From assembly GCF_021917145.1 (NCBI RefSeq), contig NC_061066.1, positions 9,088,685-9,152,684 of the forward strand: DNA of 64,000 nt, in the 5' to 3' direction. This DNA is from Hypomesus transpacificus. Taxonomy: Eukaryota; Chordata; Actinopteri; Osmeriformes; Osmeridae. The notes beneath the pieces were generated by a model that worked only from the letters and a program-made list of their open reading frames with translations, ran no database searches and was not told where the DNA came from. Shown here piece by piece: positions 3,974 to 59,248 of the stretch; the stretch's first letter is position 1, and every line of letters starts with the position of its first letter. The position numbers and the translations under genes were made by a program.

Positions 3974-4616
3974 TAATATGAAGCTGCAGTCTACACTGCA
4001 TTCTTCGCTCTCCGCCTTGTCCCTGCGGTACCAAAATCAGAGTGCGTAGTGCGAAACAGTGCTCCTGGTAATACATTGAAGTGAAGTTCCGCTTTCCAAT
4101 ATTGTCCAATTATATGAAGACACACTTCCGTATATAACGGTTTAACAGATGCTTAGACTAATCAATAGATTACTATCCATTTTTACCAAACACTGATGAT
4201 TCACAGGATAGGCTATACTTTGTCATAATTCTTTCTCACAGGTGGAATTCCGTTGTGGCAGTTGAAATGCAGTCCATTGTGAATTTGGTCTTTGCTGTGC
4301 TCTGGTGGTGAAAAGGTCTACCTGCAAATTGTTATACAAAACGCCGAGTTATTACAGCTGGTGCATCTGCGCCCGCATATGGGTGTCCTGTCCAGATAAA
4401 CTAGGAGGTGCACAAGTAGGTTCAATAAATCTGGTTTATCTAGTCTTAGTTTTTCATCAAACTAAATCAACCCCAATGACACATCGCTTTGGAGATTTAA
4501 GTATAAGAATACAGAGCTACTCCTTGCTTGATGAGAAAGGAACGTGGAATTGGACGTCCAGCTCATGTAATGTCATGAAGGGGCGCTAGTGTGCTATGCA
4601 TAAGGCATTGTATTGA

Positions 4617-5456: not shown

Positions 5457-5935
5457 AGTTCAAGTTCAAGTTCAAGTTCAAGTCTTTTATTTGTCAGGTG
5501 CACAGAGCAACACAAGGTTAGACTGGGCACTGAAATTCTTAAGACAAGACAACGCAAGCACTTGGCATAACATAACATATAAGTACACAGAACAAATTTA
5601 CATCTATGCTGAGCTTAGATAAGTGAACTTCCTAAATATACAGATAGCAATAAATAAACGACTATACTAACCCTAACACTAAAACTTCCTAAATTACAGA
5701 TAACAATAAATAGTACGCTATACTAACCCTAATACACAAAATTTGCAAATTTACAGATCAGTGACTTTGTCAATGACCAAACAGGAGCCTGGTGGCGAGG
5801 TACAGTAGTGCAATGTTACTGAAGAGCAACCAGTAGCTGAAAGTGACAGTGTATAAGTGACTAGTGTGCAGTAAAGACAAATATAATAAAGGATATAAAT
5901 AAATAATAAATAACAAATAATAAGACAAATATTTG
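5457..5935 (-). repeat. interspersed retroposon-like repeat with (CAAGTT)n end
   Basis: Begins with four copies of the hexamer CAAGTT followed by CTTTTATTTGTCAGGTG. The same sequence occurs in reverse complement at about 23105-23256, ending in ACAAATAAAAGACTTGAACTTGAAC. An AATAAA-like stretch followed by a short tandem tail is typical of the 3' end of a non-LTR-derived element, so the element runs right to left here. The part at 5630-5735 also repeats itself internally (two versions of TACAGATA-CAATAAATA followed by CTATACTAACCCTAA). Family not identified. Confidence 0.6.
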
Positions 5936-7017: not shown

Positions 7018-10000
7018 ATGTCTCCCTACAACGCGAGCACCATTGTTGGAGCGTTCGGGGTACTTAGCATTTGGGCTGCATGCTCATTTGTTACTCATGC
7101 GGCCATGGTACAGAAAAACGCAACACTAATGTTGGATGAACACTGTAAAAAAACAACTACATGCGAAGTGCTCAAATACAATACATGTCTGGGGTCCCCT
7201 TTACCGTACACCCACACGTCGCTTATTCTGGCGGAGGACTCTAACACTCAAGAAGAAGCATTTGAGAAGTTGGCCATGTGGTCGGGTATGACTTTTATTT
7301 TAGACAAATTTGATGAATTGCATGTTTTAGAATCTTTTAGAATACAATTAAGGGAATGTTATTAATAATAAACTTTCAACATAATTCAGTGTCAATTTAG
7401 ATGCATCCTAGATGTCATTTTTGACCAGCAAAGTTATCAATGGAAATCTAGTCTCTAGCTTCTCACTGCAAGTAAATTACCGTTACTGTTTGAAGGTAGT
7501 AAATGATGAATAAATAATACACAGAGTTAGTATTACAGGAAGAAGACCATTATTCAAACAAAATAAAACGTTATTGTCCGAAAATCTTCTGTAACCCTGT
7601 AATGTAAAGCCTTTAGAGTAGGCAAAAGTAATTTGATAATCAGTGAGCTTCACTTCCCATAAGAATCCGTAAGTGAAGTATTAACTTCCTCACCGTCTGT
7701 GGTGTCCTACCAGGGCAATAGCACCCACCTCCACAATAACCATTTGGCAGAAATCATTGAATCTTTATTTATAGGCTGTATAATTCCAGTCGGTCAGTGT
7801 CAATACCCCCTTCATCACCTTCATCACCTCCATCACCATCACAACATTCTCATCATCCTCCTCCTAATCATCCTCCCAGGAGGATGGTGAGAATGTTGTG
7901 ATGGAGGTGATGGAGGTGATGGAGGTGAAGGGGAGTGATGAATCCCATCACGTCTGCATTCAGACGCACATGCTTAAGCGGCAGGGGCATAGGTTTCATC
8001 ATACTTGGGTGGGACTCGTTCAAAACATCAAAAATATCCCCCTCACTTGTTATGAAGAAAATCATATTAAACAGCTGCATCCTCAGGTATATATAAAAAA
8101 AATACAACTGTCCCACCCATATTTGAAAACAAACCTACGCCCCTGCTAAGCACCACGCCCTCCTGTGGTCATCGCCCCTCACCCTCTGCACTCACCTGGC
8201 TCCCTGCAGGTCTGCGGAACGCCCCTCGCTGCTGGTCGGTGATCCAGCCCTTGCTGTGTGCCGTCTACATGCCCAAGTGTGACAATGGGCACGTGGAGCT
8301 GCCCAGCCAGCAGCTGTGCCAGGCCACCCGGCGCCCCTGCAGTATCGTGGACCAGGAGAGGGGATGGCCAGGCTTCCTCAAGTGCGATACCAAGGACAAG
8401 TTTCCCATGGGTTGCCCGGTAACAGAAGTCTAAATATGTCCAGACTGTGTCTGTGGCACAATTACAAATTATTTTTTTCGTTTTTTAAGAAAAAATAAAA
8501 TAAAAAAATTATGCAACATTCTATCATGCTCTCTCTCTCTCTCGGTTTGACAGAACGAGGTGCAGAAATTAAAGTTCAACTCGTCAGGCCAGTGTGAGGC
8601 CCCTCTGGTGAAGACGGATATCCAGGCCAGCTGGTATAAAGACGTGGAGGGCTGTGGCATCCAGTGTCACAACCCTCTGTTCACCGAGGAGGAGCACTCA
8701 GACATGCACGCCTACATCGCCTACTTTGGCTCTATTACCCTCCTCTGCACCTTCTTCACACTGGTGAGCATCAGAGTTTTCCTGGGAGTTTCTCGGTATC
8801 TTCCCTGAGGGTTTAGGGGTCAGATGGCTGAACGGTTAGGGAATCGGGCTATTAATCAAAAGGTTGTCGGTTCGATTCCGGGCTGTGAAAAAATGACGTT
8901 GTGTCCTTGGGCAAGGCACTTCACCTTACTTGCCTCAGGGGGAATGTCCCTGTACTTACTGTAAGTCACTCTGGATAAGAGCGTCTGCTAAATGACTAAA
9001 TGTAAATGTATGGTATCTTCATTGAGGGTTTAGGCTGGGGCAGTTCTATGGGCATATCTGAAGCCCTCTGTGACATTGCTTGTGAAGAGGGCTGTACATA
9101 TACATTTTGATTTTTCTTAGTTCAAAGAAAACTACAATACCCATGATGCCAGTGATCGTATTGTTGATGCTCGTGGGATGAAAACATTTGTTTTTCTGAT
9201 GCCAAACCAGTAGTGCCAGCTACCATTCACAATGTAATCATGTGTTCTTTGGTGATTGGTGGTTGTGGAAAAACCTCTTTGTTTCTATGAAACGGCCTGG
9301 GTTGCGATACCACTGTTCCGATGCTGCTTTTCTCTATAAACCTTCAACCTCCCTCCGCTCACAGGCCACATTTCTGGCAGACTGGAAGAACTCCAATCGC
9401 TATCCAGCCGTCATCCTCTTCTATATCAACGCTTGTTTCTTCGTGGGAAGTATGGGCTGGCTAGCTCAGTTTATGGAGGGTGCTCGTGAGGAGATTGTCT
9501 GCAAGAGTGACAAGACCATGCGACTCGGGGAGCCCTCGTAAGTCACAGGCCTCCATAGGTTCATGAGTTTTGAGATGGTCAATTTGTATTCAAATTGGAT
9601 TGTGTGTATGTATGGAAGTATGGATGCATGCATATAAGTGCACTTGATATTGATTCATCATGACCTTCTGGTGGCTTTAGACGTTTGCCCTCTATCGTGC
9701 TGTCTGCCTCTCCTCATAATCCCTCCATCTCTCTCTCCCTCCATCTCTCTCTCCTTCCGTCTCTCTCTCCCTCCTTCTCTCTCCCTCCTTCTCTTTCTCC
9801 CTCCTTCTCTATCTCCCTCCTTCTCTCTCTCCCTCTTCTCTCTCCCTCCTTCTCTCTCTTCCTCCTTCTCTCTCTCGCCTTCCCTCTCTTCCTCCAGGTC
9901 CACGGAGACTCTGTCCTGCGTCACCATCTTCATCATCGTCTACTATTCCCTGATGTCAGGCGTGATCTGGTTTGTCATGCTGACCTACGCCTGGCACGCC

Positions 10001-13000
10001 TCCTTCAAGGCCCTGGGCACCACCCACCAGCCCCTGTCTGGACGCACGTCCTACTTCCACATGATCACCTGGTCTATTCCCTTCATACTCACCGTGGCCA
10101 TTCTCGCCATCGCTGAGGTACTTTTTATTGTCAAACAGTCGACACACACACAATCGTGTGCGATAGTCTTTAGTGTTTTTTTCTCACACGAATGTTGTCT
10201 TAAATGTTAGTCTTTTTGGTTTCTGTATTTGTGAAGCAGTTTAAAAGTGTGATGTTCAGTTTTTGTTAGGTGTTTTTGTTTTCATTATTTCTCAAAGCGT
10301 TTTTTACTTAAAAAAGTGACTTTGAGCCCTAAGACTTTTGCGCAGTACTGTAGATGTCCACTGTTAGGTGCTTTCATACACCCTGAGCTACGAGTCATTC
10401 CGTTCTCTGTGACCCTCCAGGTGGATGGAGACTCTGTGAGTGGGATCTGTTTTGTGGGCTATAAGAACTACCACTACCGGGCAGGCTTTGTGTTAGCACC
10501 CATCGGAGTGGTGCTCGTTATCGGCGGCTACTTCCTCATACGAGGTGAGCGTCTGGGTGCATCCGGCACGTTTTACATCACAGAGTTAATCTTCATCGTA
10601 CCTGTATTGATATGTTGTTGTGTTCCTTCGTCTGTCTTCCCAGGAGTCATGACTTTGTTTTCCATCAAGAGTAATCACCCTGGGCTTCTGAGCGAAAAGG
10701 CAGCGAGCAAAATCAATGAGACGATGCTAAGGCTTGGTATGACAGTTGGTGTTGCTATTAGAGACAGGAAAAAAACAGGCCTAGTTCTTACACATCATAG
10801 GATGCTGTACTGAAGACTTAACCTCTCAGTAAAGTCACAGATGAATTGTTTTCAGTTGTCACAGTTTTAGTTGCATGGTATATTTTAGGCCAACTGAAGA
10901 ATTTTCCTTTTCCGCTGAAGGCCTTGAATATGCATATCTCTTTTTGATTTCAGGTATTTTTGGATTCTTGGCGTTCGGCTTTGTGTTCATCACTTTCGGC
11001 TGCCATTTCTACGACTTCTTCAGCCAAGCTGAGTGGGAGAGGAGCTTCAGAGAATACGTTTTGTGAGTTATTTTCCCTCCTGTGCAGTTATCTACGTCAG
11101 GGCCGGCTGTACAGTTATCTACGTCAGGGCCGGCTGTACAGTTATCTACGTCAGGGCTGGCCGTGCAGTTATCTACGTCAGGGTCGGCCGTACAGTTATC
11201 TACGTCAGGGCCGGCTGTTCAGTTATCTACGTCAGGGCCGGCCGTGCAGTTATCTACGTCAGGGCCGGTCGTGCAGTTATCTACGTCAGGGCCGGCCGTG
11301 CAGTTATCTACGTCAGGGCCGGCTGTACAGTTATCTACATCAGGGCCGGCTGTGCAGTTATCTACGTCAGGGCCAGCTGTAAAGTTATCTACGTCAAGGC
11401 CGGCTGTGCAGTTATCTACGTCAGGGCCGGCTAGACAGTTATTTTTGTCAGAGCCGGCCCTAGGGTTTTGGTGGCTCTAAACAAAAATAATGTAGTCAAA
11501 CCAATCGTGGGGCCTTAAACAAATGTTAAGTTTGTTTATTGGGTGGCCCGATCTACGTTAACCTCTCAGTGGTAATGATGTCCGTAATAATGTTTGGTTG
11601 CAGGTGCGAAGCCAACGTCACAATAGCTCACCAGACCAACAAGCCGATCCCAGAATGCACTATCAAGAACCGACCCAGTCTGCTGGTGGAGAAGATCAAT
11701 CTGTTCTCCATGTTTGGGACTGGTATTGCCATGAGTACCTGGGTATGGACCAAGGCTACCATCCTCATCTGGAAGCGCACCTGGTGCAAGTAAGCTGAAC
11801 TGGGAACCAGAAAACCGGAGCATTGTACCTTTACATTTACATTACATTTAGTCATTTAGCAGACGCTCTTATCCAGAGCGACTTACAGGAAGTACAGGGG
11901 CATTCCCCCCCGAGGCAAGTAGGGTGAAGTGCCCTGCCCAAGGACACAACGTCATTTGGCACGGCTGGGAATCGATCTGGCAACCTTCATATTACTAGCC
12001 CGATTCCCTAACCGTTCAGCCATCTGACTCCCTGTACCTTTTGTGCCAGACCAGTATCAACACGCTAAATGTGTCTCATGTAGATTTAAACAGGCAAACC
12101 AATCTCAAGGGAGAGACTGTCGTGACTCATAGTGATACCTCTTTGGAGAACTTTGATAAGTGTAGTCAGTATAGCCAGTCAATATCAGAGAAGCAATTTC
12201 ATTTTTTTTTTCTCAACAAAAACAGTTCATGTCATATTCCCATTTTAATTTAACAAATTACCATTTTAACCTGTCGTAGAATCATTGGCCGCAGTGATGA
12301 CGAACCTAAAAGGATAAAGAAGAGTAAGATGATCGCGAAAGCCTTCTCCAAACGCAAAGAGCTCCACAAGGATCCTGAGAAGGAGCTCTCATTCAGCCTC
12401 CACACCGTCTCCCACGAGGGGCCTGTTGGTGAGTGTGCACAGTACAGCGCCCTCTGATGCCTGAAACCGGTACTACAGAATACCACCCCATCAATTGTCG
12501 AAGCTTGCTCCCAACACGCAACATCCACACGCTTCTCTGAGTTGGATTTCATACCTCGCTATCGTAGTGGCCACTATATTTATTGTCAGAGACAACTGTT
12601 TTGTCTCAGGTTAAGGACTGAGTGACAGATTTACAAGTTCATATACACTGGGGCTGCAGTGGTTTGCCTATTTGCTTTAGTTGGAGAGACTCCATGTTGG
12701 TTTCCTCAGTTGAATACAGAACCTAGAGTTAGTTGTGTTCTGAATGGATTGTAATTGTGTGTGTGTGCGCGTGTTTTTTCTTCCCCTTACGTTCAAAGCT
12801 GGCATTAACTTTGACCTCAACGAGCCGTCCAATGACATGTCGTCTGCCTGGGCCCAGCATGTCACTAAGATGGTGGCCAGAAGAGGTGCCATCTTGCCTC
12901 AGGACATCTCTGTCACGCCCAGTTGCACACCTGGTGAGAGCTGGCATCCATTCAAATTCATTAATGCTTTATTGGCATGAACGAGTAAGCATTGTTGCCA

Positions 13001-18900: not shown

Positions 18901-21900
18901 AAGTCTGTACAAAAGGTAAGAAGGGGGTCATCCTCAAGGTGATGAAAGGGTTAATGTACTCTGTTCAATTTCTGCCGCCACGGTATCAGAATTAAGAGCT
19001 ATACAACATTTTAGGCCGTCTATCAGCCGTGATTGTTAGAGCGCATGTCGGAGAATAGCAAAGACACGCTTCACAGCGAGTTGAGATTGCGAGTTGATTT
19101 TCGTTGTTTGTAGGGGAGGGGGGGGTAGGGGTACGGGTAGACCTGACCTGCCCCCACTGCTAAAAAAAATCCTAGGGGAAACACTATACTCTTCTTGTGT
19201 ATATATAAAGCCATGCACAGTTCATAATGCTTACCTAAACCTTCCTCCCAGTTGTACTGACAATGGAACCAAATCAACAAATACATTTTTCTCTCTCTCT
19301 CCCTTCCTTCTTCCCCCTCCTCCTCCCTCCGTCTGGTGGTCCAGACCAGCAGTGCCGTGCGGAGGTGCTGTGTGAAGTTCCCTAACTGCGAGGCTATTCC
19401 TGAGGAGGTGGACTGCGTGGATGAGAAGGAGGTCAATGAGCTTCCGGAGTCCACGCCTCTCATCAAGTCCCTTCCCATAGCCATCGAGGTCACTCCTCCT
19501 GGGCCACAGACCCGGCTCCGTAAACACTACTGGGTATGGAGAGATGGATCAACACTGTCCGTCTGCTTAAAGATGGAATCTTTTGAAGCTTTCACTTAGG
19601 TGTGGGCATCTTTTGGTACCTCACGATTCGATTCTAATCGATTCTTGGTGTCGCAAATCGATTTCTTGCGATTCTTACAACAACAAAAAAGAACAAAATA
19701 AAGCCATTACAAAAAAATGAAAATATTTGAGAACCGCTACAAGACTGAATCGCGATTCAAATGTAATTTAAAAAAGAAAATTCACCCCACCTTCACTCTT
19801 TAATCCTTTAACGGCACAACAAGGGATTGTTTCTGCCAGCTATGCCTTGTCTCTCTAAACAAGCGCGAGCCAATCTTTAATTGTGCATAATGGTCTACTT
19901 CCTTCGTGTCTGAATACTGTTGGGTTGTGTCTGTAATGATCGTGGGATTCCTGAGTAGCGGGGGGGGGGTGGGGTCGGGAGGAATGGATAGCTCGCCTCG
20001 TACTGGTGGTTTTGTTCAGGTTTGGTTTGACGTCAGTTGTGTGTTTCTGTAATTCTCTAATCAGAAGGTTGCCGGTTCGATTCCCGGCCGTTTAAAATGA
20101 CGCTGTGTCCTTACTGTAAGTCGCTCTGGATAAGAGCGTCTGCTAAATGTAAATGTAATATAAAAGATCTCGTGGTTGTGTCGTTCGTGTGGGGTCAGGG
20201 TCGTGTGAGCACCTACATATGGCTGATACTCGGGTACCCTGTCTTGGCTGTGGCCCACGGGCTGGCCTGCTTCCTGTCCTGGCTCCTGGTGTTCACCATC
20301 CCCGTAGCCAAGGTGAATGCCCGCACGCTGGGCACTATTCTGCTCACGACTCCAGAGGACATCCACATCCACTCACACAAAAAGGTGCGTACACCTGGAA
20401 GGTGATTACCCTGTAAAGGGACCAGGAAATGCTTGGCTCTCTCTGTTTCTCTTGGGTTTATGTCACATACGGACTATGTAAGTCAGATGGATGAGCAGTT
20501 AGGGAATTGGGCTAATAATCAGAGGGTTCGATTCCCGGCCGTGCAAAATGACGTTGTGTCCTTGGGCAAGGCACTTCACCCTACTTGCCTCGGGGAGAAT
20601 GTCTCTGTACTTACTGTAAGTCCCTCTGGATAAGAGTGTTTGCTAAATGACAATGTAATGTAAGGCATGTGGGGTCTACTGCCCTGTTCCTGCAGAGCTA
20701 CCTGCCTGTGGGTTTTAGCTCCAACACTAATCCAGCACACCTGATTCTAACAAATAGCTGCTTGATCAGGTAACTAGTGTTGAATTGGGTCCACTGAGTG
20801 TGGTTGGAGAGAAAAGAGTGCAGGTATCATTGCAGGAACATGGTTGGAGACCCCTGATATAAAGGTTTAGTTGTTGTGTTTTACGGTGTCGTTCAACTGC
20901 TTCTTTGCAGGTCATAGGCTGTGAGACCAGGGTGGTGCTGTGTTGCTACAACGCTTTCAACTTGTACTATTACAAATACAGTGTGTACGGGATCAACGTG
21001 TTTGCTGTCAGTATCCTTCATCTTGCCTTGGCAAAGCTCTGGTCGTCAAACCCCACATCATCCACATGTGACAAGCAGGAGTCCCGTTTGACTCTTATGT
21101 ATATTTATATGTAAGAATTTACAGCATCGATCCAAACTCTGTACACCTCGTATTCAAACCTTTTCCTTCCCACTAGTTGATTGTGATCCTTAAAGCCACC
21201 CAGACCTGCTTCCCCTGGTGATAGTGACCCTGGTGATCGGCTACATTGACGAGGACAACCAGGTTGTCAGCTCGGAGATCAAGTTTGCAACAGCATTGAC
21301 CTCTATCATCCCCCTCTCCTACTACATCGGCATGGGTATCGCTAGGTGAAGCACAACACTCACCTCCTTTGCTTTACAATTGCTCCAAAATGTATTCTCA
21401 TAAATACACGACAACTTAAATATATACAAAATACATAATCCACATTTTGTGTAATGATTTTTTTTCTTTAATGTAGTATTTCAGCTCAGAGTAACTTTGC
21501 GGTGGGGGCAGTGGTGAACGCCACGTTCGGCTCCATCACGGAGTTGACCTTCTACATCACGGCCCTGCTCAGGGGTCACCGCGAAGGCTCCAAGTGCTAC
21601 GAGGAGATTGTGAAGTCTGCCCTCACCGGCACCCTGCTGGGATGCATCCTCTTTATCCCCGTGAGTGTGGGGAAGCTTAAATTTAACCGATAACCGACGC
21701 TCGTTAACGACCGTTAACTGACAAGATATTAGAATGGATGTGAAAAGTTTAACGCTGTAGGCTACCTAGCCTACATAATTGGCAGGTATAACAGCACCAA
21801 AGTACAATTTATTTTGTTGCTCCCCTTGGCTTTCCTGTCACACTTCAACTACAAACTATCCAAAGTGTTGACTGTGGTTCATCCCCAGGGTATCTGTATG

Positions 21901-28201: not shown

Positions 28202-31200
28202 GGGGAGAGAGAGAGACACACACGTAAATTATACAACATACGATATTAAGATTAGTTCAAAATGTTCTAAAAGGAAAGTCATTTTGAGGACCCTCACCAT
28301 TCCTAATCTGCACACAGCTATGACATCTCCTAGGAGCAGGATATCCTGTGAAAATAAAGTAAGCACATTCTTTGAGCAGTTGGCTCGAATAAGCTGGCCT
28401 TGCATATACGTTTTCCATACAACAACTTCTACAGACCTATTTTATCATGAGGGTTAGTTCTGATCTCCTCCCAGGAATTAGTCTCCAGGTTGTAAGCATG
28501 TATCTGACCACAGGAAGAAGGAAACAGAAGTTGTTATGGCTTGCTACACCTAAATGATTTTGTGCACCATGTGACAAGCAAGGACTCAGATGATTGGTTA
28601 GTGCACCTTGTTGAGAGGGTAGGACATCCAGGAGGTTCCACCTCCCAAGATGTAGATCCTCTGTCCGTCATGCGCGATCTCGTGCCTGTACCTGTCACAG
28701 AAACGAGTACCGCTTACCCTCTCCTCTGTAGCCATCTTGGCAAAACAAACGCTTGTCATCTAACCTGTTTGATGTTGCCAGTTTTACCTTACCTTGTGTT
28801 CCAAAAAACTAACAAACCAAAAAACGTATACAGCCTAAACCAGGGTTCTCCAATACTGGTCCTCGAGGGCCGCTGTCCTGCATGTTCTAGATGTTTCCCT
28901 GCTCCAGCACACCCGAGTCAGCGAAACATCTCAAACATACGATAAACTTTATTGTCCCGCTCAGGGGGAATTGTATGCAGGACAGCTGCGGCCTTCGAGG
29001 ACCAGGATTGGAGAACCCTGGACTAAACTAATCCAAACCCTCAAGGAAGTCAAGGGTACACTCACAGGAGAAAACATGGAGGACACCCAGGGGAGGAGCT
29101 GGTCAGGGAGGGATCCTGTCCTCCAGTGGCAGTTACACTGTCATATTCCGTCTAATTTGCTTGACCAAACTAACTGAAAGATTCCCATCTGAGTCCCAGC
29201 CTACCTCTCTTCAGGCAGGTCGTGCGAGGGGTTGTTAGGTTTGAGGTGAATCCACTCTCGGGTGGTCAGATCCAGCCTGTGCAGGTCTGTGCTGTAGATG
29301 TAGCCTGTCGTCCCTCCAAACACATACAGGAAGCCGTTTATGATGGCCATTGCCTGAGAGAATCACAAAGTAGAATTCAAGTTTAACTGTCAAAAAGATA
29401 GTCTGGACAATCAAAGAATTATTTCGCAATACTCTTCCATTCAAAATACATATTATTTATGGTTTATCCAGTGCCTTATATTATATACAAATATTGAGGG
29501 TATTTATAGTGCCTTTGTAGTCTAAAAAGGTAAGCTTGTAAACCAGCCAGAACACCAACGGTACGAAAACGTCAGTTAAGAAAGTCTAATCTATTTGGTT
29601 TAGGTTCAGCACCTGTCCATAGATTCTGTTAGGCTTCTTCCCTCTACAGTTGAGCAGCGACCACCGTTTATATTTAACGTTGCACACATGGACGTCGTTC
29701 CCGTTGCTTTCCCCGAAAGGAATCCCCGTACCTCCAAACACCAACAAATTGTTTCCATGTAAAACAGCTTAGAAGGGGAGATAAACAGAAACACAGCACT
29801 CAGAGTTACATACAAAACCAACATGCAGTTCCTTACACCAAATCGAGACAGCGTGGATGGCTCATCGTAACCATCTGTGGCACAAACCCCCATAGTTGTA
29901 CCTGAAACCTCCAACCCCGGGTGCCTTTCCCTGGTAACCCTGGGTAGGCTCACCTGACATGGAGGCCAGCTCCGTGGGCATGTAGCCTTCTGTGCGCACC
30001 TGCTGCCAAGTGCCTGTGGCAAAGTGGTACCTCCACAGCTCTCTGAACAGCGGGTAGTCCTCGTTCTCCGAGCCCCCCGACTCGTCGTAGTTAGGGTTGT
30101 AGCCTCCGAACACGTACAGGTTAGTGTTGTCTGCCACACAGCGATGGCCACTCCGCGCAGGAGGTGTGCGATGGCCTGTGTGTGTGTGTGTGTGTGTGTG
30201 TGTGGTGTAGAGGGGGAAAACAGGGTGGGAGAATTTAGTACAAGAAAATTATATTTGTTCACACACTAAACACTGACACATAAGTGTTTTGCCCAACAAG
30301 CTTGGAACAACTTAGTGATGGTGGGTAATATAAATGTGACCACTGAGCTCTAATGAAATACAACTATAGACAGATAAGAGATAAATGTATTCGAAAACAA
30401 GTTATTTCACAGAGGAGGGAGAGAGGGCTTTACAAAGCCAGCAGTATGTCCTTGTCAGTGTAACTAAACACTTGTTTGCTCCATGTGCAAGCCTCAGATA
30501 TGCTTTTGCTACACACACACACACTGAGATGAGACAAGAATGAAACTTATCATCTAAACAGCTTTTAGTTGGCTGTCAAACTGGGCATCTGTCAGAAGAG
30601 ATAAAAGAGATGAGCTGAACTCTCTGATGAACCAATGGTTGGGTCAACGTGCCCTCATCATCTTTCCCCACCCTGTGCAAACCACAACACATTAACCTAA
30701 TTAAATGAGAACTTAAAAGCCAGATTATGGGTCTGGCTGGGGTCCCATATCTACTCCCTAATCACCTAAGCCACTGTTTGCTGTATTCCTGATACACTTT
30801 TGTTCAGCTAGGCCCAAAACCATCTCCACATTTTCCTTCTTTTCCTGACCGATAGACAGCCTGGATTCGTCCTCTATGCAGGGACACAATGTGAGTCTGA
30901 AAGGCCTACTACAAATGAAGTTGTGTCCTTGGGCAAGACACTTCACCCTACTTGCCTCGGGGGGAATGTCCCTGTACTTACTGTAAGTCGCTCTGGATAA
31001 GAGCGTCTGCTAAATGACTAAAATGTAATGTAAATGTAATGTAATTCCTGAAGTGGTAAACCTTGAAAGACAACCAGAATCAATGATGTATCAATCAAGT
31101 GTTGCAGTGTCAACAGAATTTGTAGTCTTGTCCAGGCATGGGCAGAGGATACTCATGCAACAGAACTAGGATATAATACTTGTTATTATTCTGCATCTCC

Positions 31201-32411
31201 ATCAGTGTCTCACACTAAAGGGAACTAGTGGTATGGTACTATAGTTACCAACTGCTATGGCGGTCTACTGCTATACTAAACTGCTGTTGTGTTGATATCA
31301 CTTCAACACTACAGATTGACACTGCTTTAGCTTGGGAATGCTAGTATTATTTGACGAGGAATTTACCAGGAAAGCAGCTAAATTATGCGGCACAAACAAA
31401 AGCCATTATTTAGTTGCTGTGGTACGTGTGTGAAAAGGATTATAGCAAAGTACCTGATATTCCAGTTGCAGTTGTTCATGCAATGTTCTTCAAGTAAGCT
31501 ACAAACACAACCTCATCAGTAGACCATTGCATGGCTCTCAAAAACGAAAAGCAACCAACTAGACTTATACCAAGGAAATAATTAGCTGAACATTTGTCTA
31601 TTCCCTTCAGACATGTCTACCATTATGTAAGAGCATCACATGAATATTAAGGGAATCCATACGTATATGAAATGATGTGTATATGAACCCTTGTGACAGC
31701 CATGGACATTACTGCTACTGGTTCAAGCAGTGTGGTATGTGTTGATGGTCATTGGGATCTTTACAAGTACGACTTAAAAATATATACTAGTAGCAGCATT
31801 TCATTTTAATTAACATTCTCTTGTGTTGCACTAGGGCCCCACTGCTAACTAAATACGTTTCAAATATCACATCAATATACCGTAACTTAATAAATGATTC
31901 TAGCTAGCTAGAGGCTAGCTGTTAGTCGGCATTAGAAGAGAAGCTTATGAGAAAATAACCAGAAAACGAATAGCAGTTTAGCCTATTGCTAACGCCTGTC
32001 TAGATTTTCTATTGAAAGAACTGGAGAGAGGCAGGTGCTCTAGCGTTAGCAAGCTAAACTAGTTTACATGGCTACAGTAGTTAAGTGTCTTCGCTGTCTA
32101 GTTTTTCTTGCATTCCTTGCAAATCAGCGTTAATAAAAACCAGATGAGATAGAGCTAGCTAGTGTAGCGAACATTGACATTTGCTCGTTGCTTAATCGGT
32201 GAGACCGTACTGTTCAAACTAGCCCAGAACATTTAATGTAGTGAACTAGCAAGCTTGTCTAAAGACACGTTAGCATGCTAGCACAGCTAGCGTGGAATAT
32301 GTCAAATGTTTTTGACTGACCTGCTGCTAGTCCTAGGGGAGGCCTCCCTGACAGTCTCTCGAATTTATTCAGCTGGTCCGAATTGCGAGCACCTTCAGCG
32401 GACGACATCAT
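27401..32411 (-). CDS. klhdc10: kelch domain-containing protein 10, CUL2 E3 ligase substrate receptor
   Basis: Six-bladed kelch adaptor for a cullin-2 ubiquitin ligase. The mammalian protein recognises C-terminal alanine degrons from stalled-ribosome quality control and also modulates ASK1 signalling. Nine coding exons on the minus strand: 32411-32321, 30175-29954, 29767-29613, 29353-29205, 28691-28607, 28503-28437, 28345-28298, 28134-27995 and 27610-27401. They total 1167 nt in phase, 388 aa. Kelch blade motifs are NLYVFGGYNP, NLLVFGGTG, FLYVFGGTTG, IYILGGGTSW, VFICGGYNGE and MYIHGGVVN. The C-terminus (SLLELCWENLLKAFP... LIERLK) is the conserved BC-box-like tail. Two adjacent ATGs open the frame (32411 and 32408). 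The human protein is 442 aa; the N-terminus here is shorter and a basic segment present in human between exons 1 and 2 is absent or unannotated. The neighbour zc3hc1 is divergent, as in human. Confidence 0.93.
28139..28220. repeat. (GA)n microsatellite in klhdc10 intron
   Basis: GAGAGA/GAGACA run next to the exon at 28134-27995. On the minus strand it becomes the (CT)n polypyrimidine tract immediately before the TCTCAG acceptor. Confidence 0.9.
28841..29020. mobile_element. non-autonomous hAT-type element in klhdc10 intron 4
   Basis: Terminal inverted repeats of about 45 bp: CAGGGTTCTCCAATACTGGT... at the left and ...ACCAGGATTGGAGAACCCTG at the right, continuing into CTGTCCTGCATG/TATGCAGGACAG. 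Flanking 8-mers GCCTAAAC (28833-28840) and GACTAAAC (29021-29028) match at 7 of 8 positions, an hAT-length target duplication. It is 180 bp with no coding capacity. Confidence 0.9.
30176..30203. repeat. (TG)n microsatellite abutting a klhdc10 acceptor
   Basis: Pure TG run directly next to exon 2 of klhdc10 (high end 30175). On the coding strand it is (CA)n ending in the CAG acceptor, so this acceptor has essentially no pyrimidine tract. Confidence 0.85.
30204..32320 (-). other. klhdc10 intron 1
   Basis: 2.1-kb intron between klhdc10 coding exons 1 and 2. Apart from a truncated SINE at 30912-31046 I see AT-rich unique sequence with TAGC-rich stretches. I looked for the 29-codon basic exon known from human KLHDC10 and did not find it. 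Confidence 0.55.
30912..31046 (+). mobile_element. tRNA-derived SINE, copy 6, 5'-truncated (klhdc10 intron 1)
   Basis: Starts at AAGTTGTGTCCTTGGGCAAG, lacking the tRNA-like head, and ends with GGATAAGAGCGTCTGCTAAA and an (AATGTA)n tail. It is antisense to klhdc10. Confidence 0.9.
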
Positions 32412-33488: not shown

Positions 33489-36400
33489 ATGGCGACTTTC
33501 GGTAGTCGTGGAAATCGTCTTGTCAATTCCAATAAACAATGTAAGTCTGTTTTTGCATCTCCAGAGAAAGTGCGTGAACTTCTCAACGAAGGTGTGGTGT
33601 CAGAAGAGAACCGATCAAATGGGTATGTTTTTCTTAAACGCGCTCATGCGGTTACTTTGATCAAAAAAGGGAGCTAGCGGCAGTTCACTCTACAGTACTT
33701 GGCTTGCTAGCCTTACCCTGCGAGTGGACTCACACTTTTTGATTACAAGCAAAGCGGTTTCTACTAACGGTTGACTGTTAGTTTACAGTACAAACATGAT
33801 TAAGTAGGAATATATAACGTGATAAATTATTGGTAAATGTATTGGCTTTTTTTCTGATCACAATCTATTTTGAAAGATAATTGCACATGTATGTTACGTA
33901 ATCTACACAGCACATTCTTGGAGGCTGGACACCAGAATAACAACTGAATGTCCACCTAATGCTAGCTACCACCATTGCCTTACAATGCCAACTAGGTCTG
34001 TAATAAGTGTGTAGTTTCAATACAGTTTTGCTTCTCTACAAATCACCGTTTTTCTTGATCTCACATGTGTCCACATGCAGGCGCACATGCCATGGTATCA
34101 TTACACAAGGAAAAAGTGGGACACGATGTACAGATACAGATATTTTTTGAAAACGTGTTTCAGATATCGTAACTCTTATTAACAACGCAGTTACATATTT
34201 GTCTCATCTGTTTTTATCATTTAGAGTGAAGGGGAACTTGAATGCTGTGGAATCAAACGACATACCCAAAGTTCCTTTCGAAGCGGCCAACAAAGATGCA
34301 TTTTTCAACCGAGTGGAGTCATATTCAATATCCTTTGATTATTTTATTGACTAGATAGGATAACGCTTAATAAGAGATAAAAGCGTCCAGTTGCACACAA
34401 TTTAGATGTATTTTCTTTGGATTTTATGTTGCATGATTAAATAACACACAAATCGTTGCTTTGTCAAGGAGCATAGAACTGAATAGTTTTGTTCAAAACA
34501 ATTCCTTAGCGTGAGCACTGTTTGAAATGGGCAGGAAAACCACACAGCCTTTCTCCACTGAGGTGTGCGAGCTATGGCTGGATTAATGTGGGTTGTGATA
34601 TGCTTAAATGCTCCAGCTGCCAGGCATTTCTCTGTGCCTCGCTGCAACCAACACTGGACTTCTTGAAATGTGAGTTTGCTTTTGTAACTTTTTTTAAATT
34701 GTTATTACTGTCAAGAATTCTGTGCAAACCAAGTTTCAATAGTTGTCTGGAACAGTGTAGATAAACCCCTTGTCCCTCTCAATAGATGAGTCACGTATTG
34801 CAGAGATATCCAGGCAACTGCAGACACAGCATGAAAAGTTTTGTCCTTGGCCAGACTTCCCATGCCCAGGTAATAGCACAGACTTTCCTATCTCACACTA
34901 TGTTTTATGTACTGCCTTGGATGTTAAACTCGTATGTGGTCGTTATCTGAGAACTGAAGTTACTTAGTGATTCACTGTCAGAGGAGAGTAATGCGGTTGT
35001 CCTAATGATTCAGACCGGTTTTGGCTGGTTCCGGCAAATGAGCCCTCGGTTCTTCTCAGTGCCTTCCTGGAGCGTTTCCAGAGCGCTTGTATCCTGGAAC
35101 AGCAGCTGCCTGCCATGAGCCCTGAGCAACTCAAAAACATGGTAGGTGACGGCCATTTTGCCATAACATGAGGGAATACATTATGAAATGGAGAGGGTGG
35201 TATAAAAAAAAAATATATATATATATATGATAATAAAGTTACAATTAGTGCGAATAAGTTCACTCCCTGGTTCACTGCCAGGTTTGATGGGGGTTTGGTC
35301 TGGCTATGGCCGGATCTTTGATCAGCACTAATTTACACTTGACTTTTGTCCCTTTTGACAGTCTTTGACGGAGGATATCGTGAGTGTGCTTCTGCAGCTG
35401 ATCGAAGAGGAACAGAAGAAGCTTGGCAGAACTCTAACATCTGAAACTTTGGCTGTCCAAGTCGCTGCCTGCATCGTTTCTCTGTGTGGCTGGGCTGCTA
35501 GGTTAGAAAACTACAAAAGCTAGACGCATATCACCTATCATTTCATACCGAGTGTGTGATCGGCATTATATGATTTCCTGTTTTTGGTTTCTGTAGCCCG
35601 ACTCTGCATGCCATGAGCCTCCCCATGCTTGTGTGCTCCTACTGCATGCGCAAAGTGGGCCTGTGGAACTTCCACCAGATGGAGGGGTCATCGGGGGGAA
35701 GCGACAGCTCCGTCCCTAGCACTCCCACCAGGGTGCAGTCACCTACCCCGACCCATGTCCAGGACGCCCGTGGGGATAGGGGCACTCCCACCTCACCCTC
35801 CCCATCCTCCACCCCCAGCCGTATGAAGCTAAGGAGTCAGGACTCGACTCGCTCTGATCAGGTAGGCATCTTCACTCGGAGGTAGACTGGCTGGAGTGAG
35901 GTCGCATATTGGTAATTCCAAGGGCAATTCCTTTCGTGTGAAGCCCCTGAACATCTCAACTTTGTAGACGCACCTTGGCGAAGTACCATACACGTGCTGG
36001 ATGTGTTTGTTGCAAACAGACCGAGGGTAGTCCGTCCCCCATGGTGGTCCGCACGCGGAGCAGAGATTCCCCCAGTCCGAGTGAAGAGTTGCCAAGCCCG
36101 TTGGCCCGTGGAAAGAAGCCTTCTGCTCGAGGCAGAGGGCAGGGAGAGGGCCCTGGCAGCCCCCAACACCACCCCAAACGCCTGCGCCTGTCTTCAGCCG
36201 GTGGCCCTGTAAGAGACCATCTCCCCCACTCCCTGTTCACACACGTGTTTGGTTGACATTTTAAAGGATGTCATTCCAACCATACTTTTCTATAGATATT
36301 CTGTAAAAAAATATTATTATTTTCAGTTCATGCACAAGTTATATGTACGTTTTATGTTATTGAGGATGTCCTTCTGACTGTACTTGTGGTTGTTGACTTG

Positions 36401-36986
36401 TTGAACCGGCCAACTTGGTGGTTAAAGCGTGCGTCATACTAGTAGCTAAAGTCTCCTTTTTGATGTTTTCTTGTTCCAGGAGGGGCCCCTGCAGAGGAAT
36501 GTATTTGACCCACTGGCCCAGCACAGAGACTGGTGCCCCTGGGTGAACACAGGGAAAGAAAACAAGCCTGAGGACATTACCCTCCTAGACGGAGACGCGG
36601 AGGAGAACCAGCCGGGCTGGAAGGCTGCTCTCAACCTACTCCTGCCCATGAAGAAGACATCGGACGTTACAGGAAGAAGTCCATCCCAGGTTAGCACAAA
36701 ACGCAGGGATCATAGACAATTGCAGGTCTGCTTTAGTGTAGTTGAACTACTAAGTATTTTTGTTTGCCAAATCAGGATGAGTGTTTTCTAACATGTTTGA
36801 CATAGTGTCCACTCATATTGGTTTTACTGCTGAAATGACTTTAATCTGATGCTGAGCTATTGCTTGTAAATTGTGTTTTGGTGTGTCTAATCTTCAACTG
36901 TCTTTTCTCTCCAGGGTCCTCACGACAAGTCAAAAAGGGTGTTCGCTATATTTCGTCAGTGGCAGATATCCTCCCCATCTCAATAA
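33489..36986 (+). CDS. zc3hc1: zinc finger C3HC-type protein 1 (NIPA)
   Basis: Nuclear protein described in mammals as an F-box-like SCF component controlling cyclin B1 and as a nuclear-basket (TPR-associated) protein. Ten coding exons: 33489-33622, 34225-34327, 34519-34669, 34786-34869, 35014-35141, 35362-35501, 35597-35861, 36020-36208, 36480-36689 and 36915-36986. They sum to 1476 nt in phase, 491 aa (human about 502). The C3HC zinc finger/BIR-like domain has KCSSCQAF (Cys110, Cys113) and HEKFCPWPD (His145, Cys149). The second conserved region has CGWAA... CSYCMRKVGLWNF, followed by a Ser/Pro-rich disordered part, a basic PKRLRL stretch (possible nuclear signal), QHRDWCPWVN and the end RVFAIFRQWQ. 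I start at ATG 33489 (MATFGSRG) because it resembles the vertebrate N-terminus; in-frame ATGs lie upstream at 33414 and 33441. Intron 2 has AT-AC ends and U12-type signals. Confidence 0.93.
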
Positions 36987-42643: not shown

Positions 42644-45600
42644 AGAGAGAGAATGTTGTTGACTTTTTACTCTAGACTATGACCTAGCTACAGTGATATT
42701 TGCACATGATTTCAAAGTCTTGATTTCCCTTCTAAACAAAATCCACCAACAAGGATTCTTGCCTGATTGGAAAGTTTAAATTTCTAATTTATTTTACCAG
42801 CCCTCATTAAGCAATTTTCCCATTCTTAAATGTTCCTGTAACAAGCAGCCAGGCTGGTCAGCAGTATCTGGTTTATCTAGGATTATACACACAATGCAGA
42901 AATGTTCTGTAAATAGACTGTTGATGTTGTGAAGGGGGAGGAGTCGCCATGGGAGTCATTATGAACGTGGAGGGTGGGATTTCACCCAGGAGAGGAGACA
43001 AAGAACTCGAGAGACTTCCTCTGTGGAGAAGAGAGAGCTTGTTTGTTCTGCTCTGCCCCAATGCTCTCTAGCTGCTGTGGGAACCTTGTCCTCACTGCAC
43101 AGTTAAAGCTACAGGTATCCACAGGCTCGGCTCCAAGGTGTGTTGGTGATGAGGGAGGGGGGGGGTTGTAGTCGTCCCTTGTTTCTGTTTTAGGTTTTAG
43201 GGTGTTTCTGTTTTAGGTTTTAGAGTGTTTCTGTTTTAGGTTTTAGAGTGTTTCTGTTTTAGGTTTTAGGGTGTTTCTGTTTTAGGTTTCAGGGTGTTTC
43301 TGTTCTAGGTTTTGCGGGGAGTGTTTCCCCATGGGTTAGTGTTTCCCCAGGGGTGAGTGCAGAAGCTGTGTTTGGTGCAGGTGGCTGGGGCAGTTTCAGT
43401 TCCCCTTGGCTTGGTGTGTCACTGGGTACACCTGGTTAAAGGAGGTAGAGAAAGAGCACGCTAGAGAAAAACTGCTAGCTAGGCCCCCATGCTTTTCTAT
43501 AGCTGGCAAACAAGCAATACTAGTAAAACAGTTCACATAGTGCCAGCAGCTAGGTCTGTTTGTTTTGCCCTGCACATTTTGCAGTCCCCACTCTCTCAAC
43601 CTTATGTTTGACCGACTATTACTCTATCACAGAATTTTAATCGGGGAGGGAAAAAAAGAAGCATTCTGGTCTTTGAACAGCCTTCTTTTTTTTTTCTTGT
43701 TGTTGTTGCACCTTTCATTATTCATAAACAGAGATGTGTGTTTTCCTGGAGGATTTTACTTCCATTGATGTGTAAAACATGTTGAGGTTCTCTGTTTGCT
43801 CATGCGTCATTCCACACTCATCGCATCAGTATTCCACCAGCACCCCAACACCAGCCCCTCTCAGAACAGCAAGACTACTGTAGTCTTGCTGTTGTTCAAT
43901 AACACTTGGGAATTGGGAAGCTAATGCCAGCTGACAAGTGGGTTGAGTTTGTAAGAGCCTGTCATTTGCCCAGGCCATGAAATCTGATGTAATTAGCTTT
44001 AGCGCTGTTGAGGGTTGAGGGCTTAAGTTTGCATGAGGACGGAGACTGTGTTGCATCTCCCTGTGATATTTGGTTTGGCCCTTGGAGTCCCTTGGTGAAC
44101 TTTCATACTGCAGAAAATAGCCTAGCCAGCGGGGCTGTGGAAAAGTGCCAACCTGATGTCATATCCTGTCCTTCAGATTAGACACCCTTCATGGTTTTCC
44201 AGTAGTTGTTAAGTGTGTTTGTTGTTATTGAGAAACGTGTCCAGGATCACTAAAGCCTACTTGTCTCATTGTTGTAGATAAGAAATAGGATGTTCTACAT
44301 ACAATATAATGAAGCCTGTGTGTGTGTGAGCATGTGTGTGTGTGAGCATGTGTGTGTGTGAGCATGTGTGTGTGTGAGCATGTGTGTGTGTGAGCATGTG
44401 TGTGTGTGAGCATGTGTGTGTGTGAGCATGTGTATGTGTGAGCATGTGTGTGTGTGAGCATGTGTGTGTGTGAGCATGTGTGTGTGTGAGCATGTGTGTG
44501 TGTGGGCATGTGTGCCTGGTACAGTGTTGGATCAGGACTGTGACAGTGGAATAGTGAAGCAGCCTAGGTTGACCCCTCCCCCCCTCCCCTATGAGCGACA
44601 GGAAGAGGAAGGGGGAACAGCTGGTGGAGCCTCCGTCCTATTGCTCCACCTGCAATCACTTATCAGGCATGGTCAGCCAGAGCCCCACAGCCCTGGAGAC
44701 ATAAGCCAGAACCAGAGAGGAGAGGAGAGGGAGCCAGAACCAGGGAGGAGAGGAGAGGGAGCCAGAACCAGGGAGGAGAGGAGAGGGAGCCAGAACCAGA
44801 GAGGAGAGGGAGCCAGAACCAGAGAGGAGAGGAGAGGGAGCCAGAACCAGGGAGGAGAGAGAGGGAGCCAGAACCAGGGAGGAGAGAGAGGGAGCCAGAA
44901 CCAGAGAGGAGAGGAGAGGGAGCCAGGAGAGGAGAGGAGAGGAGAGGAGAGGAGAGGAGAGGAGAGGAGAGGAGAGGAGAGGAGAGGAGAGGAGAGGAGA
45001 GGAGAGGAGAGGAGAGGAGAGGAGAGGAGAGGGAGCCAGAACCAGAGAGAAGAGGAGAGGGAGCCAGAACCAGGGAGGAGAGGGAGCCAGAACCAGAGAG
45101 GAGAGGAGAGGGAGATGTTTAGGAACCAGACCCGGCAGAGGAAAGGTGGCAGGAGGCCGGCTCGTCTACGAGTCCCTCTCTTCAGTCCCTCTGATGACAG
45201 GATATATAAATAACCTAGACTAATTAGGTTGCACTTTTTGGGGGGAAACCTCCCTATTTTTCTTGCCAGTTTGTCTTCTCTTAAAGAACTGTTGTGTGTG
45301 TGTGTGTGTGTGTGTATGGTTATTAAATGTTCTGTAGGGAAGAACAGTACAGGCCATTACAGATTACTAGAACAGCATCTAATCCCTTGGTAAACAGAAG
45401 CTAAACGCCTTAAGGCTTTGTAAGTAAGGTACTGCCTGGTATGGGCCTGTTTTCCCCTCTCCTGTTACCCAGTAACCCTAAGGGGCAGAGCTAAGCGGCT
45501 ATCTTAGCACCTGAAGGTTATTTCTCCCAACGAGACCAGTGAATTAGAACTGACAGGTTTATTTCATGTCGTTCACTGTGTTTGTCATCCGCTTTTGTTA

Positions 45601-48600: not shown

Positions 48601-51600
48601 ACACACACACACACACGTACGAGCGATAAAGGCAGCCGCACACTGAGCCATGCAATTCGTCCCCTAAGCCCTTCCATCGGTAGAGCACGCACGAGAACAC
48701 GCACGGTGGCATGTTACCTCTTTTGAACGTGTGTTCTTCTAGTTCTGTACATTTCGTATGCATGCATGCCCCAGACGCAATCCACAACAAATCCACTGAA
48801 TTACTAAATATGACTCGATTTTTGTCAGTCTCTATCTCGGAGACTTAAGGATCAAAATGGCTTCCTTGACTGTGTGTGGTAAAGCTGCGGAACCTCACAG
48901 ACTGACGGCACACTTCCTGGGTGAAGCAGGAGCCTCAGTCTGGCCTTGCAGATTCTCTGAAAGCTTAAAATAACCTCTCGTTTGGTTTAACCCTTTGGGG
49001 GGGTCACCGTCACCGCTAATGGGATCCTCCTCTCGGTCAGGACGGTTGAGGGCGGCCAGCTGCTGTTGTTGTTGTGGATCAGAGAACACTTTCATAACCT
49101 TCCTTCCTCTCTATCTGCCTCCCTTCCTCATCCACTGCCTTTGATATCGCGCCCTCGGTTTCCTGCACTCTGTTTCTCAAGCCCTCTCCCTCTCTCTCTC
49201 TTTCTTTACGTTTGGTTGTTTTTTTTATGTCGTTCTCCCTCCTGTGCTATNNNNNNNNNNNNNNNNNNNNNNNNNNNNNNNNNNNNNNNNNNNNNNNNNN
49301 NNNNNNNNNNNNNNNNNNNNNNNNNNNNNNNNNNNNNNNNNNNNNNNNNNNNNNNNNNNNNNNNNNNNNNNNNNNNNNNNNNNNNNNNNNNNNNNNNNNN
49401 NNNNNNNNNNNNNNNNNNNNNNNNNNNNNNNNNNNNNNNNNNNNNNNNNNNNNNNNNNNNNNNNNNNNNNNNNNNNNNNNNNNNNNNNNNNNNNNNNNNN
49501 NNNNNNNNNNNNNNNNNNNNNNNNNNNNNNNNNNNNNNNNNNNNNNNNNNNNNNNNNNNNNNNNNNNNNNNNNNNNNNNNNNNNNNNNNNNNNNNNNNNN
49601 NNNNNNNNNNNNNNNNNNNNNNNNNNNNNNNNNNNNNNNNNNNNNNNNNNNNNNNNNNNNNNNNNNNNNNNNNNNNNNNNNNNNNNNNNNNNNNNNNNNN
49701 NNNNNNNNNNNNNNNNNNNNNNNNNNNNNNNNNNNNNNNNNNNNNNNNNNTTCAACATCTGACCTCATCAAATCAAAATCTAATGAATCTGAACTCCTCT
49801 GTTCTCTCCTGTTGTCTATCATCCCTGTTGCTGCTCCTACAGATGAGGTTTTCGGACGTTGTGAAAAAGTCTTTCACAACCCCTACCGTCTAAAGTCCGT
49901 TTTAGTGAATGTAGGAAGTTGTAATCCTCTGTAATCCTCCACTACTCTTTTCTCTGATCATATCTGTCTTTTTATCCTCACTCTCCCCATCCCTCCTTAT
50001 CTCATACAGCACCATACGAAGGGGGTGTGTGGAAGGTGCGAGTCGACCTACCAGACAAATACCCCTTCAAATCACCATCTATAGGTAGTCAGCGGGGCCC
50101 AGGGTTGAAGGTTGACTATCAGCTCAGAGAACGTTGATCACAGTCTAACCTCTCGTGTTCTGATCTCTTCTTGCAGGATTCATGAATAAGATTTTTCATC
50201 CCAACATCGACGAAGCGTAAGTTGACAAACGCCCAGTTGCTGTTAAACGGACGGATGTGTTTGATCTGTGCGTTCTGATTGGCTGGCGTGTGTGACGTGT
50301 TCAGTACTGTATGTCGCCTGTTGAGAAGGCAGCGTTTGAAATATGCTGCACGGAAATGGAGCTGATGTCTTTTAGCACAGCCGTCACTGTGAAGGAATGA
50401 GGGTTAATCTGATCTGTATCACCGTAATGTTAGCTCATCAAGTCTGGCAAAATCTGCCTCTAATCTCCTCCAGCCCTGTCCACCAACACTAGGAGGACTA
50501 TTGTACACCAAATCTGTTGCTTGTAAAGGTCTTGTGGCCCTGTCGTCCTATTCCACCGCAGAGGGAAAATAAGAAACCGTTTCTTCCACGAAGTCCGCAA
50601 ATAGATGTTTTTGTTTATTTCCCAGAGATTAAAAAGTGAGAGGAATTATGGGATTTGAAAGTGCAGAACAGGAATTTGATCGGCGTAATCTCTCCTCTGC
50701 CTGTGCTCTGCTGCTCTCGACTGTGAGGGGAGCGATGGCTGGCACATCCAGGGACTTATAGAAGATCTCCTCCTCCAGCTTCTCTGTGGTCCTGAAGCTC
50801 TCCTCAGTAGTGTTATGAAGGCCTTAGGTGACCAGCGATGAACAGTATCTTCTCCCTCACCCCTCTCTCTCTTTTAACCTCTTGCTCTCCCCCCCCCCAC
50901 CCCAACACCCCCCCTCTCCAGGTCAGGAACGGTGTGTTTAGATGTCATCAACCAGACTTGGACGGCACTGTACGGTGAGTGGGATGGGGCTGGGCCAGGC
51001 TGGAGGGACACGAGCGGGACTGGTGGTAGCCGCGTCGCCCCTAATCCTCTTAGTGTGGGAGAACCGAACGCTAACTAGGTAATACCCTGAGCCAGCAAGG
51101 TCAGGGGAGGCACAGAGCTGGCCTACAGCTGCCCTCTGCGCAGAGCTGGCCTAGAGCTGGCCTACAGCTGCCCTCTGCGCAGAGCTGGCCTAGAGCTGGC
51201 CTACAGCTGCCCTCTGCACAGAGCTGGCCTACAGCTGGCCTACAGCTGCCCTCTGCACAGAGCTGGCCTACAGCTGGCCTACAGCTGCCCTCTGCACAGA
51301 GCTGGCCTACAGCTGGCCTACAGCTGCCCTCTGCGCAGAGGTGGCCTAGAGCTGGCCTACAGCTGCCCTCTGCACAGAGCTGGCCTAGAGCTGGCCTACA
51401 GCTGCCCTCTGCACAGAGCTGGCCTACAGCTGGCCTACAGCTGCCCTCTGCGCAGAGGTGGCCTAGAGCTGGCCTACAGCTGCCCTCTGCACAGAGCTGG
51501 CCTACAGCTGGCCTACAGCTGCCCTCTGCACAGAGCTGGCCTACAGCTGGCCTACAGCTGCCCTCTGCACAGAGGTGGCCTCCCACATGCAGAGATGATA

Positions 51601-53338
51601 AACTAGGAGTCAGGGGAGATGGGGGGGGGGGGAGGTCTGGGCCAGTCTCAGACACCTGACTGACTTACTTAATCTTCACTTCTTCTCTCCAGTCTCCAGT
51701 GTCCAGTCACTTTCTCTCTCGATATAGATATAGATATGTGTCCAGTCATCATTGATGTCTCTCTCTCTGCTCCTCCTATCTCACTTTCTGGGTTGTCGTT
51801 TTTTTCTCCCTGGCTTTCGATAGCTCTGAGAGGCAGGCACAGACACGCCCTCTCTCTATCTTTCTTTCTCCACCTCCTCGTTTCTCTCCCAGTGTCCAGT
51901 TGTGGTTCCTCCCCGAGGTCAGGGTTGCGGTGTGCTGGCTTAAGTGACTGTGATTATGGTCCTAACAGATGTTTCATCAGCACACCCTCTTCAGTTTCAG
52001 CCAGGCTCTCAGGGGTGGAACTGGGACCCTGTGCTGGAGGGTCACTAAATCCCCACTGTGTGTGGAGCCAGCTCTTGTCAACTTGAGATGTGCCTTTTTG
52101 AGTCCGGAACATGTTTGATTAGGCTGTCGTCGACTTGAAGTAGAGGGTAAAATTAGGGTTACATTTACATTTATGCATCTAGCAGACGCTTTTATCCAAG
52201 GTGACTTCCAAGAGAGAGCTTTACAAAAGTGCATAGGTCACTGATCATAACAACGAGATAGCCCCAAACATTGTGAGCAGCCAAAACATGAAGCATACAT
52301 TGTGAAAACCCAATAAGTGCAAAAGGGAAAAACCATAAGAGAATGCAGTTAAACAAGTTACAGTAAAAAAAAAAAACATGAAACTCAAAAAGTGCAAGTG
52401 TACCTGTAGAAAAACAATCAACAGTAAAAAAATATTTCACAGTGAGAACAAGAATTTTAATCCGTTAGGGTTTGAAAGAAAATGTTTCGACGATGGAGTG
52501 TTGGAAACAACTCAATCAATAATCCATTGTCTACATCTCAGTTCTTCATTTTAAAACAAATTATGTTGATTCGATTATTGTTATTGCAGAACCTTATTTG
52601 AATGTACGCCGATCCAGTCAAATGTTTTTGAATCGCATTTGAATGGACTCAACAGTGACACCTGGTTGAGGGAAATGGTACTGCGCTGCAGCCATTCGCT
52701 CGGACCATAACGCAGGGTCGACCTTTTGACACCCATGGGAGAGGGTTAGGCTGGAATAGTCTATCTGCATATCACAGTGTACTTTAACAACATTTTATTG
52801 TTTTCATGTACATAGAAAAGTAAGAATCTGTTGGCTATTCGGGATTTGGTCATTTAAAATGTACCTTATATTCTCCTCACTCCCCTTCCCCCCGCTCTCT
52901 CTACCTCTCTCTTTCTCTCTCGCTCTCTCCCCCCTCTCTCTCTATCCTCCCTCCCTCGCTCTCTCTCTCTACCTCCCCCTCTCTCTTTTAGATCTCACCA
53001 ACATCTTTGAGTCGTTCCTGCCCCAGCTGTTGGCGTACCCCAACCCCATCGACCCGCTGAACGGAGATGCCGCTGCCATGTACCTCCACAGGCCAGAGGA
53101 GTACAAACAGAAAATCAAAGGTACCCACCCGCCTCTCTCTCTCCTCTCTCTGTCTCTCTGTCTGTCTCTGTCTGTCTGTCTCTCTGTCTGTCTCTGTCTG
53201 TCTCATTTCTCTCTGTCTGTCTCTCTCTCTGTCTCGTGTCTCTCTGTCTGTCTCTCTCTGTCTCGTGTCTCTCTGTCTCTGTCTGTCTCTCTGTCTCTGT
53301 CTGTCTCTCTCTGTCTCATGTCTCTCTGTCTGTCTCTC

Positions 53339-59047: not shown

Positions 59048-59248
59048 AGGGAGTCAGATGGCTGAGCGGTGAGGGAGTCGGGCTACTAATCAGAAGGTTG
59101 CCGGATCGATTCCCCGCCCCGCAAAATGACGTTGTGTCCTTGGGCAAGGCACTTCACCCTACTTGCCTCGGGGGGAATGTCCCTGTACTTACTGTAAGTC
59201 GCTCTGGATAAGAGCGTCTGCTAAATGACTAAATGTAAATGTAAATGA
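59048..59248 (+). mobile_element. tRNA-derived SINE, copy 8 (downstream of ube2h)
   Basis: The best preserved head (GGAGTCAGATGGCTGAGCGG) with GATCGATTCC box B, GGGCAAGGCACTTCACCCTA body, GGATAAGAGCGTCTGCTAAA and an (AAATGT)n tail. Useful as the family reference in this window. Confidence 0.93.

Follow-up and report, generated by a model that had tools for sequence, protein, structure and literature searches.

Introduction

What defines a U12-type intron is its 5' splice site and branch site, with no distinct polypyrimidine tract, and either A of the branch consensus is described as usable (PMC3584512). For zebrafish, 662 such introns have been quoted (PMC9501576), and the AT-AC subtype is given a share of 22% there (PMC7367187). 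A human AT-AC intron from SMYD2, listed in Table 1 of PMC7367187 as ATATCCTTTA ... CTTTCCTTGACT ... AGCAC, is a described case that closely resembles the intron studied here, the second intron of a fish gene that is very probably zc3hc1. Both have ATATCCTTT as 5' site, a branch motif containing TTCCTT and an AGCAC end at which AG would be skipped for AC. They lie in different genes and differ in phase (1 in SMYD2, 0 here) and in the branch motif, TTCCTTGAC in SMYD2 against TTCCTTAGC in zc3hc1, where the second A is a G.

Judged by its sequence, intron 2 is a new but unremarkable example of a class that is already well described. Literature searches pairing zc3hc1 with 'U12-type intron', 'minor intron' or 'nubaid' returned no match, and the one match with 'U12' was on microgravity; among the matches listed for zc3hc1 with 'spliceosome' none was titled on minor introns, and the name zc3hc1 was counted 0 times among the matches listed by a broad search.

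Results

Gene model and identity

The source genome comprises 437 Mb in 376 contigs. Within the window, by which we mean the whole 64-kb stretch of DNA analysed, a coding model of ten exons spans 33489-36986 (+) and translates into 491 aa with 0 internal stops. Its exons are as follows, in window positions:

33489..33622, +, zc3hc1 coding exon 1, with the ATG
34225..34327, +, zc3hc1 coding exon 2, ending ...RVESYS, phase 0
34519..34669, +, zc3hc1 coding exon 3, starting CLKWAGK
34786..34869, +, zc3hc1 coding exon 4
35014..35141, +, zc3hc1 coding exon 5
35362..35501, +, zc3hc1 coding exon 6
35597..35861, +, zc3hc1 coding exon 7
36020..36208, +, zc3hc1 coding exon 8
36480..36689, +, zc3hc1 coding exon 9
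36915..36986, +, zc3hc1 coding exon 10, with the TAA

Eight of the nine introns in this model have GT-AG termini, the exception being intron 2, with AT-AC. Pfam recognizes the zf-C3HC/NuBaID N-terminal domain at residues 67-191 of the protein (119.7 bits) and the NuBaID C-terminal domain at residues 236-456 (69.3 bits). Peptides at 32334-32411 (-) and 53027-53116 (+) flank the gene; the upstream one, on the opposite strand, probably belongs to a KLHDC10-like first exon, and the downstream one to a UBE2H-like exon. Because this flanking order matches the human order at 7q32, presumably KLHDC10 - ZC3HC1 - UBE2H, the ten-exon gene is very probably zc3hc1: it shares with ZC3HC1/NIPA both NuBaID domains, N- and C-terminal, as well as the KLHDC10-like and UBE2H-like neighbours. 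We take ZC3HC1/NIPA to be a nuclear-pore basket protein, a role that fits the name of the Pfam domain.

A sequence search of the PDB with the protein gave a single irrelevant match (E 0.64). Relatives were absent from viral contigs, searched with all 491 aa, and from bacterial and archaeal contigs, searched with the first 200 of the 491; these collections are uninformative on vertebrates.

The rest of the window holds five UnaL2 LINE 3' elements, each over the gathering score (8948-9001, 20103-20156, 30970-31023 and 59181-59234 on the plus strand, 11846-11899 on the minus strand). Two repetitive stretches, 44600-45220 and 51090-51660, are open in several frames on both strands, with GEERR-like and other units. 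A cysteine-rich peptide at 8338-8385 (+) is presumably smoothened-like, and a long open frame at 2993-4036 (-) looks to us like an exon of a semaphorin/plexin-type receptor. The 500 N at 49251-49750 are probably an assembly gap.

Sequence elements of intron 2

The elements that bear on the class of the intron are these:

34328..34518, +, intron 2 of zc3hc1, AT-AC, 191 nt, 32% GC, phase 0 (sequence and gene model)
34328..34336, +, U12-type 5' splice site ATATCCTTT, 9/9 to the consensus (sequence and matrix)
34352..34354, +, in-frame TAG that is met on retention of intron 2, after ...ESYSISFDYFID (translation)
34502..34510, +, putative U12 branch site TTCCTTAGC, with 34508 as the likely branch A (motif)
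34508..34509, +, rival AG acceptor that keeps phase and adds REH (junction enumeration)
34514..34515, +, rival AG acceptor that keeps phase and adds H (junction enumeration)
34517..34518, +, AC 3' splice site of intron 2 (sequence and gene model)

A preliminary description of this DNA, made from the sequence, had read the intron as U12-type AT-AC from its 5' site, a near-consensus branch motif near the 3' end and the AT-AC termini. This interpretation is supported here by these features and by the lack of a clear polypyrimidine tract. The termini are as it described them, with ATATCCTTTG beginning at 34328 and ...GTGAGCAC finishing at 34518. At the 5' site, ATATCCTTT agrees at all 9 of 9 positions with the U12 consensus (A/G)TATCCTTT. 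The branch motif is more equivocal: TTCCTTAGC does lie at 34502-34510, as described, and agrees with TTCCTTRAY at 8 of 9 positions, but its single mismatch falls on the usual branch base, a G in place of A, which the description had overlooked. An A is present at position 9 of the branch 12-mer, and 12-mers were required to have A at position 9 or 10 for the branch matrices of intronIC (PMC7367187). From this A, at 34508, to the intron end at 34518 there are 10 nt. The quoted optimum for U12-type introns is 11-13 nt (PMC3584512), perhaps on another way of counting; on ours, intron 2 is one below it.

Pyrimidines make up 10 of the 22 bases just before the 3' site, the lowest value among the nine introns of the gene (the others have 11-18). 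This agrees with the lack of a polypyrimidine tract, although the contrast is weak, since the next-lowest introns, both U2-type, are nearly as poor, with 11/22 and 12/22. When intron 2 is read through, translation stops at intron bases 25-27, after eight intron codons.

AT-AC termini can also be handled by the major spliceosome, as in intron 21 of human SCN4A (PMC2831892). At our locus, the complete match of the 5' site to the U12 consensus and the few pyrimidines before the 3' site argue against a U2-type AT-AC intron, which we regard as extremely improbable. Introns of that type generally have a 5' site resembling that of other U2-type introns.

Matrix scores and chance expectation

Scores for the U12 5' site and branch site come from hand-set matrices built on the U12 consensus, which differ in this from the SpliceRack or intronIC matrices. 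The preliminary description had proposed scoring the intron with a U12 weight matrix, and the outcome favours it: on the hand-set matrix, the 5' site of intron 2 reaches 15.6, while the other eight introns of zc3hc1 range from -26.7 to 1.8. The best branch score is 8.4 (0.0 to 5.2 in the other eight), about half of the possible 15.9.

Neither motif is rare enough to be telling by itself. ATATCCTTT occurs twice on the two strands of the 64 kb, against a shuffle mean of 0.66, and 16 of 100 shuffles reach two; TTCCTTARY occurs three times in the window, against 2.73 by chance. With the hand-set matrices, 4 of the 127982 9-mers in the window score as high as the 5' site of intron 2, and 54 of the 127976 12-mers as high as its branch motif. 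An equal or better branch motif is found 8-20 nt upstream of 38 of 8030 AC-ended sites (0.47%), intron 2 counted in. Each motif alone is within chance, so the weight comes from their position at the exon ends: the 5' motif starts at the exon end that the protein demands, and the branch A lies 10 nt before the AC where the protein resumes. Since the boundary was chosen with the motifs in view, these chance figures are not independent of one another and their product would mislead.

The further exact copy of ATATCCTTT lies at 5888-5896 (-), and two GTATCCTTT 9-mers are found on the plus strand, at 13198 and 38999. Across the whole genome ATATCCTTTG occurs 1744 times (865 + 879) against 603 (303 + 300) for the reversed letters. 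This excess is larger than the usual number of AT-AC minor introns in a vertebrate, and may stem from composition or from a repeat.

Which junction keeps the protein

Joining 34327 to 34519 gives the open frame of 491 aa with the peptide ESYS/CLKWAGK, as first proposed. We take human ZC3HC1 to read RVETFSSLKWAGK, equal in length to RVESYSCLKWAGK. Alternative junctions were enumerated with donors GT, GC and AT at 34245-34420 and acceptors AG and AC at 34430-34599, leaving out GT-AC and GC-AC. This yielded 53 in-frame, stop-free pairs: 18 AT-AC, 20 AT-AG, nine GT-AG and six GC-AG. Changes in protein length, taken from the 40 least-changing pairs plus all 15 GT-AG and GC-AG pairs, were measured from the junction proposed at first, for which the value is 0 by construction; it is therefore the Pfam score that serves as an independent test. 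Five of the 53 junctions were scored against zf-C3HC, the AT-AC pair 34328/34545, which loses nine residues, being among the other 48.

The best score of the five, 120.8 bits, belongs to AT-AC 34328/34518, followed by AT-AG 34328/34515 (118.4 bits, 2.4 below), AT-AG 34328/34509 (114.5 bits), GT-AG 34313/34515 (103.7 bits) and GT-AG 34313/34509 (103.6 bits). If the subtype is read from whichever junction preserves the protein best, intron 2 is AT-AC, the top of the five by 2.4 bits. AT-AC is clearly ahead of GT-AG and modestly ahead of the nearest AT-AG.

A conventional U2-type intron would use the weak donor GTGGAG at 34313 with the AG at 34509 or 34515, leaving the U12 motifs to chance. Nine of the 53 pairs are indeed GT-AG, but none of the GT-AG pairs with donors at 34245-34420 and acceptors at 34430-34599 keeps the length of the protein. 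The closest two, 34313/34509 and 34313/34515, have a net loss of two and four residues, and the remaining seven make the protein longer or shorter by at least 13 residues. Using the donor at 34313 also costs the VESYS residues and some 17 Pfam bits relative to the AT-AC junction. GTGGAG moreover departs from the GTRAGT consensus, few pyrimidines precede the 3' site, and a full U12 5' site would be left unexplained. We give this arrangement next to no credence.

Another reading is a U12-type intron that shares the 5' site and ends with AG at 34515 (or at 34509), in the main form or in a minor isoform. The preliminary description had held that no AG acceptor keeps phase, which proved incorrect: splicing to the AG that ends at 34509 or to the one that ends at 34515 leaves the frame open, with REH or H added to the protein, and for 34515 the drop in Pfam score is slight. 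Introns with AT-AG and other AT-AN termini are known, too (PMC8280824). Nevertheless, both acceptors bring in extra residues and score lower against Pfam, and both fall short of the 11-13 nt optimum, the one at 34515 ending 7 nt from A34508 and the one at 34509 overlapping it. AT-AG combinations are, besides, described as disfavoured (PMC3584512), and on balance we find this ending improbable, though less so than excision by the major spliceosome with either kind of termini.

Discussion

Intron 2 of zc3hc1, which lies in phase 0, is very likely a minor intron, U12-type and of the AT-AC subtype. The class is assigned here from sequence, as it is by intronIC (PMC7367187). Some features of the locus count against this assignment: the usual branch A is a G in TTCCTTAGC, the branch score is about half-maximal, A34508 is slightly nearer to the intron end than the published optimum, the AC is preceded by two in-frame AGs, and two U2-type introns of the gene have almost as few pyrimidines before the 3' site. 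Phase 0 is also described as disfavoured among U12 introns, which goes against a U12 reading of a phase-0 intron (PMC7367187).

On the other side, CENATAC is reported as a factor favouring AT-AN minor introns (PMC8280824), and a profile search with PF14968 points to a putative CENATAC/CCDC84 relative in the same genome, which we count in favour of the U12 AT-AC assignment. It gave four matches, each of them above the family cut-off, on a single contig, C371, the best with E 3.3e-22; two of the four contain one internal TAA, so that an intact gene is not implied.

If the intron is indeed excised by the minor spliceosome, the U11/U12 di-snRNP would recognize ATATCCTTT and TTCCTTAGC jointly. The attack on the 5' site would then come from the first A of the branch motif, at 34508, and not from the usual second one, because the second A is a G here and only the first can serve as branch. 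The AC at 34517-34518, 10 nt downstream of A34508, would be chosen as 3' site, and the AG at 34514-34515 passed over. The end of this AG is just 7 nt from A34508 and AT-AG is disfavoured, which together would explain the use of AC.

With this assignment, intron 2 adds one example to a class that has hundreds of members per vertebrate genome. An annotation that admits GT-AG introns only would misplace its junction and distort the protein, which makes the gene model worth recording. A more speculative, and on present evidence rather unlikely, scenario is that the branch site lost its preferred A in the lineage of this fish, so that splicing would depend on the first A while two in-frame AGs compete with the AC, a slow step that would tie a nuclear-basket protein to the activity of the minor spliceosome. 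Were this true, intron 2 would be prone to retention or to the production of isoforms.
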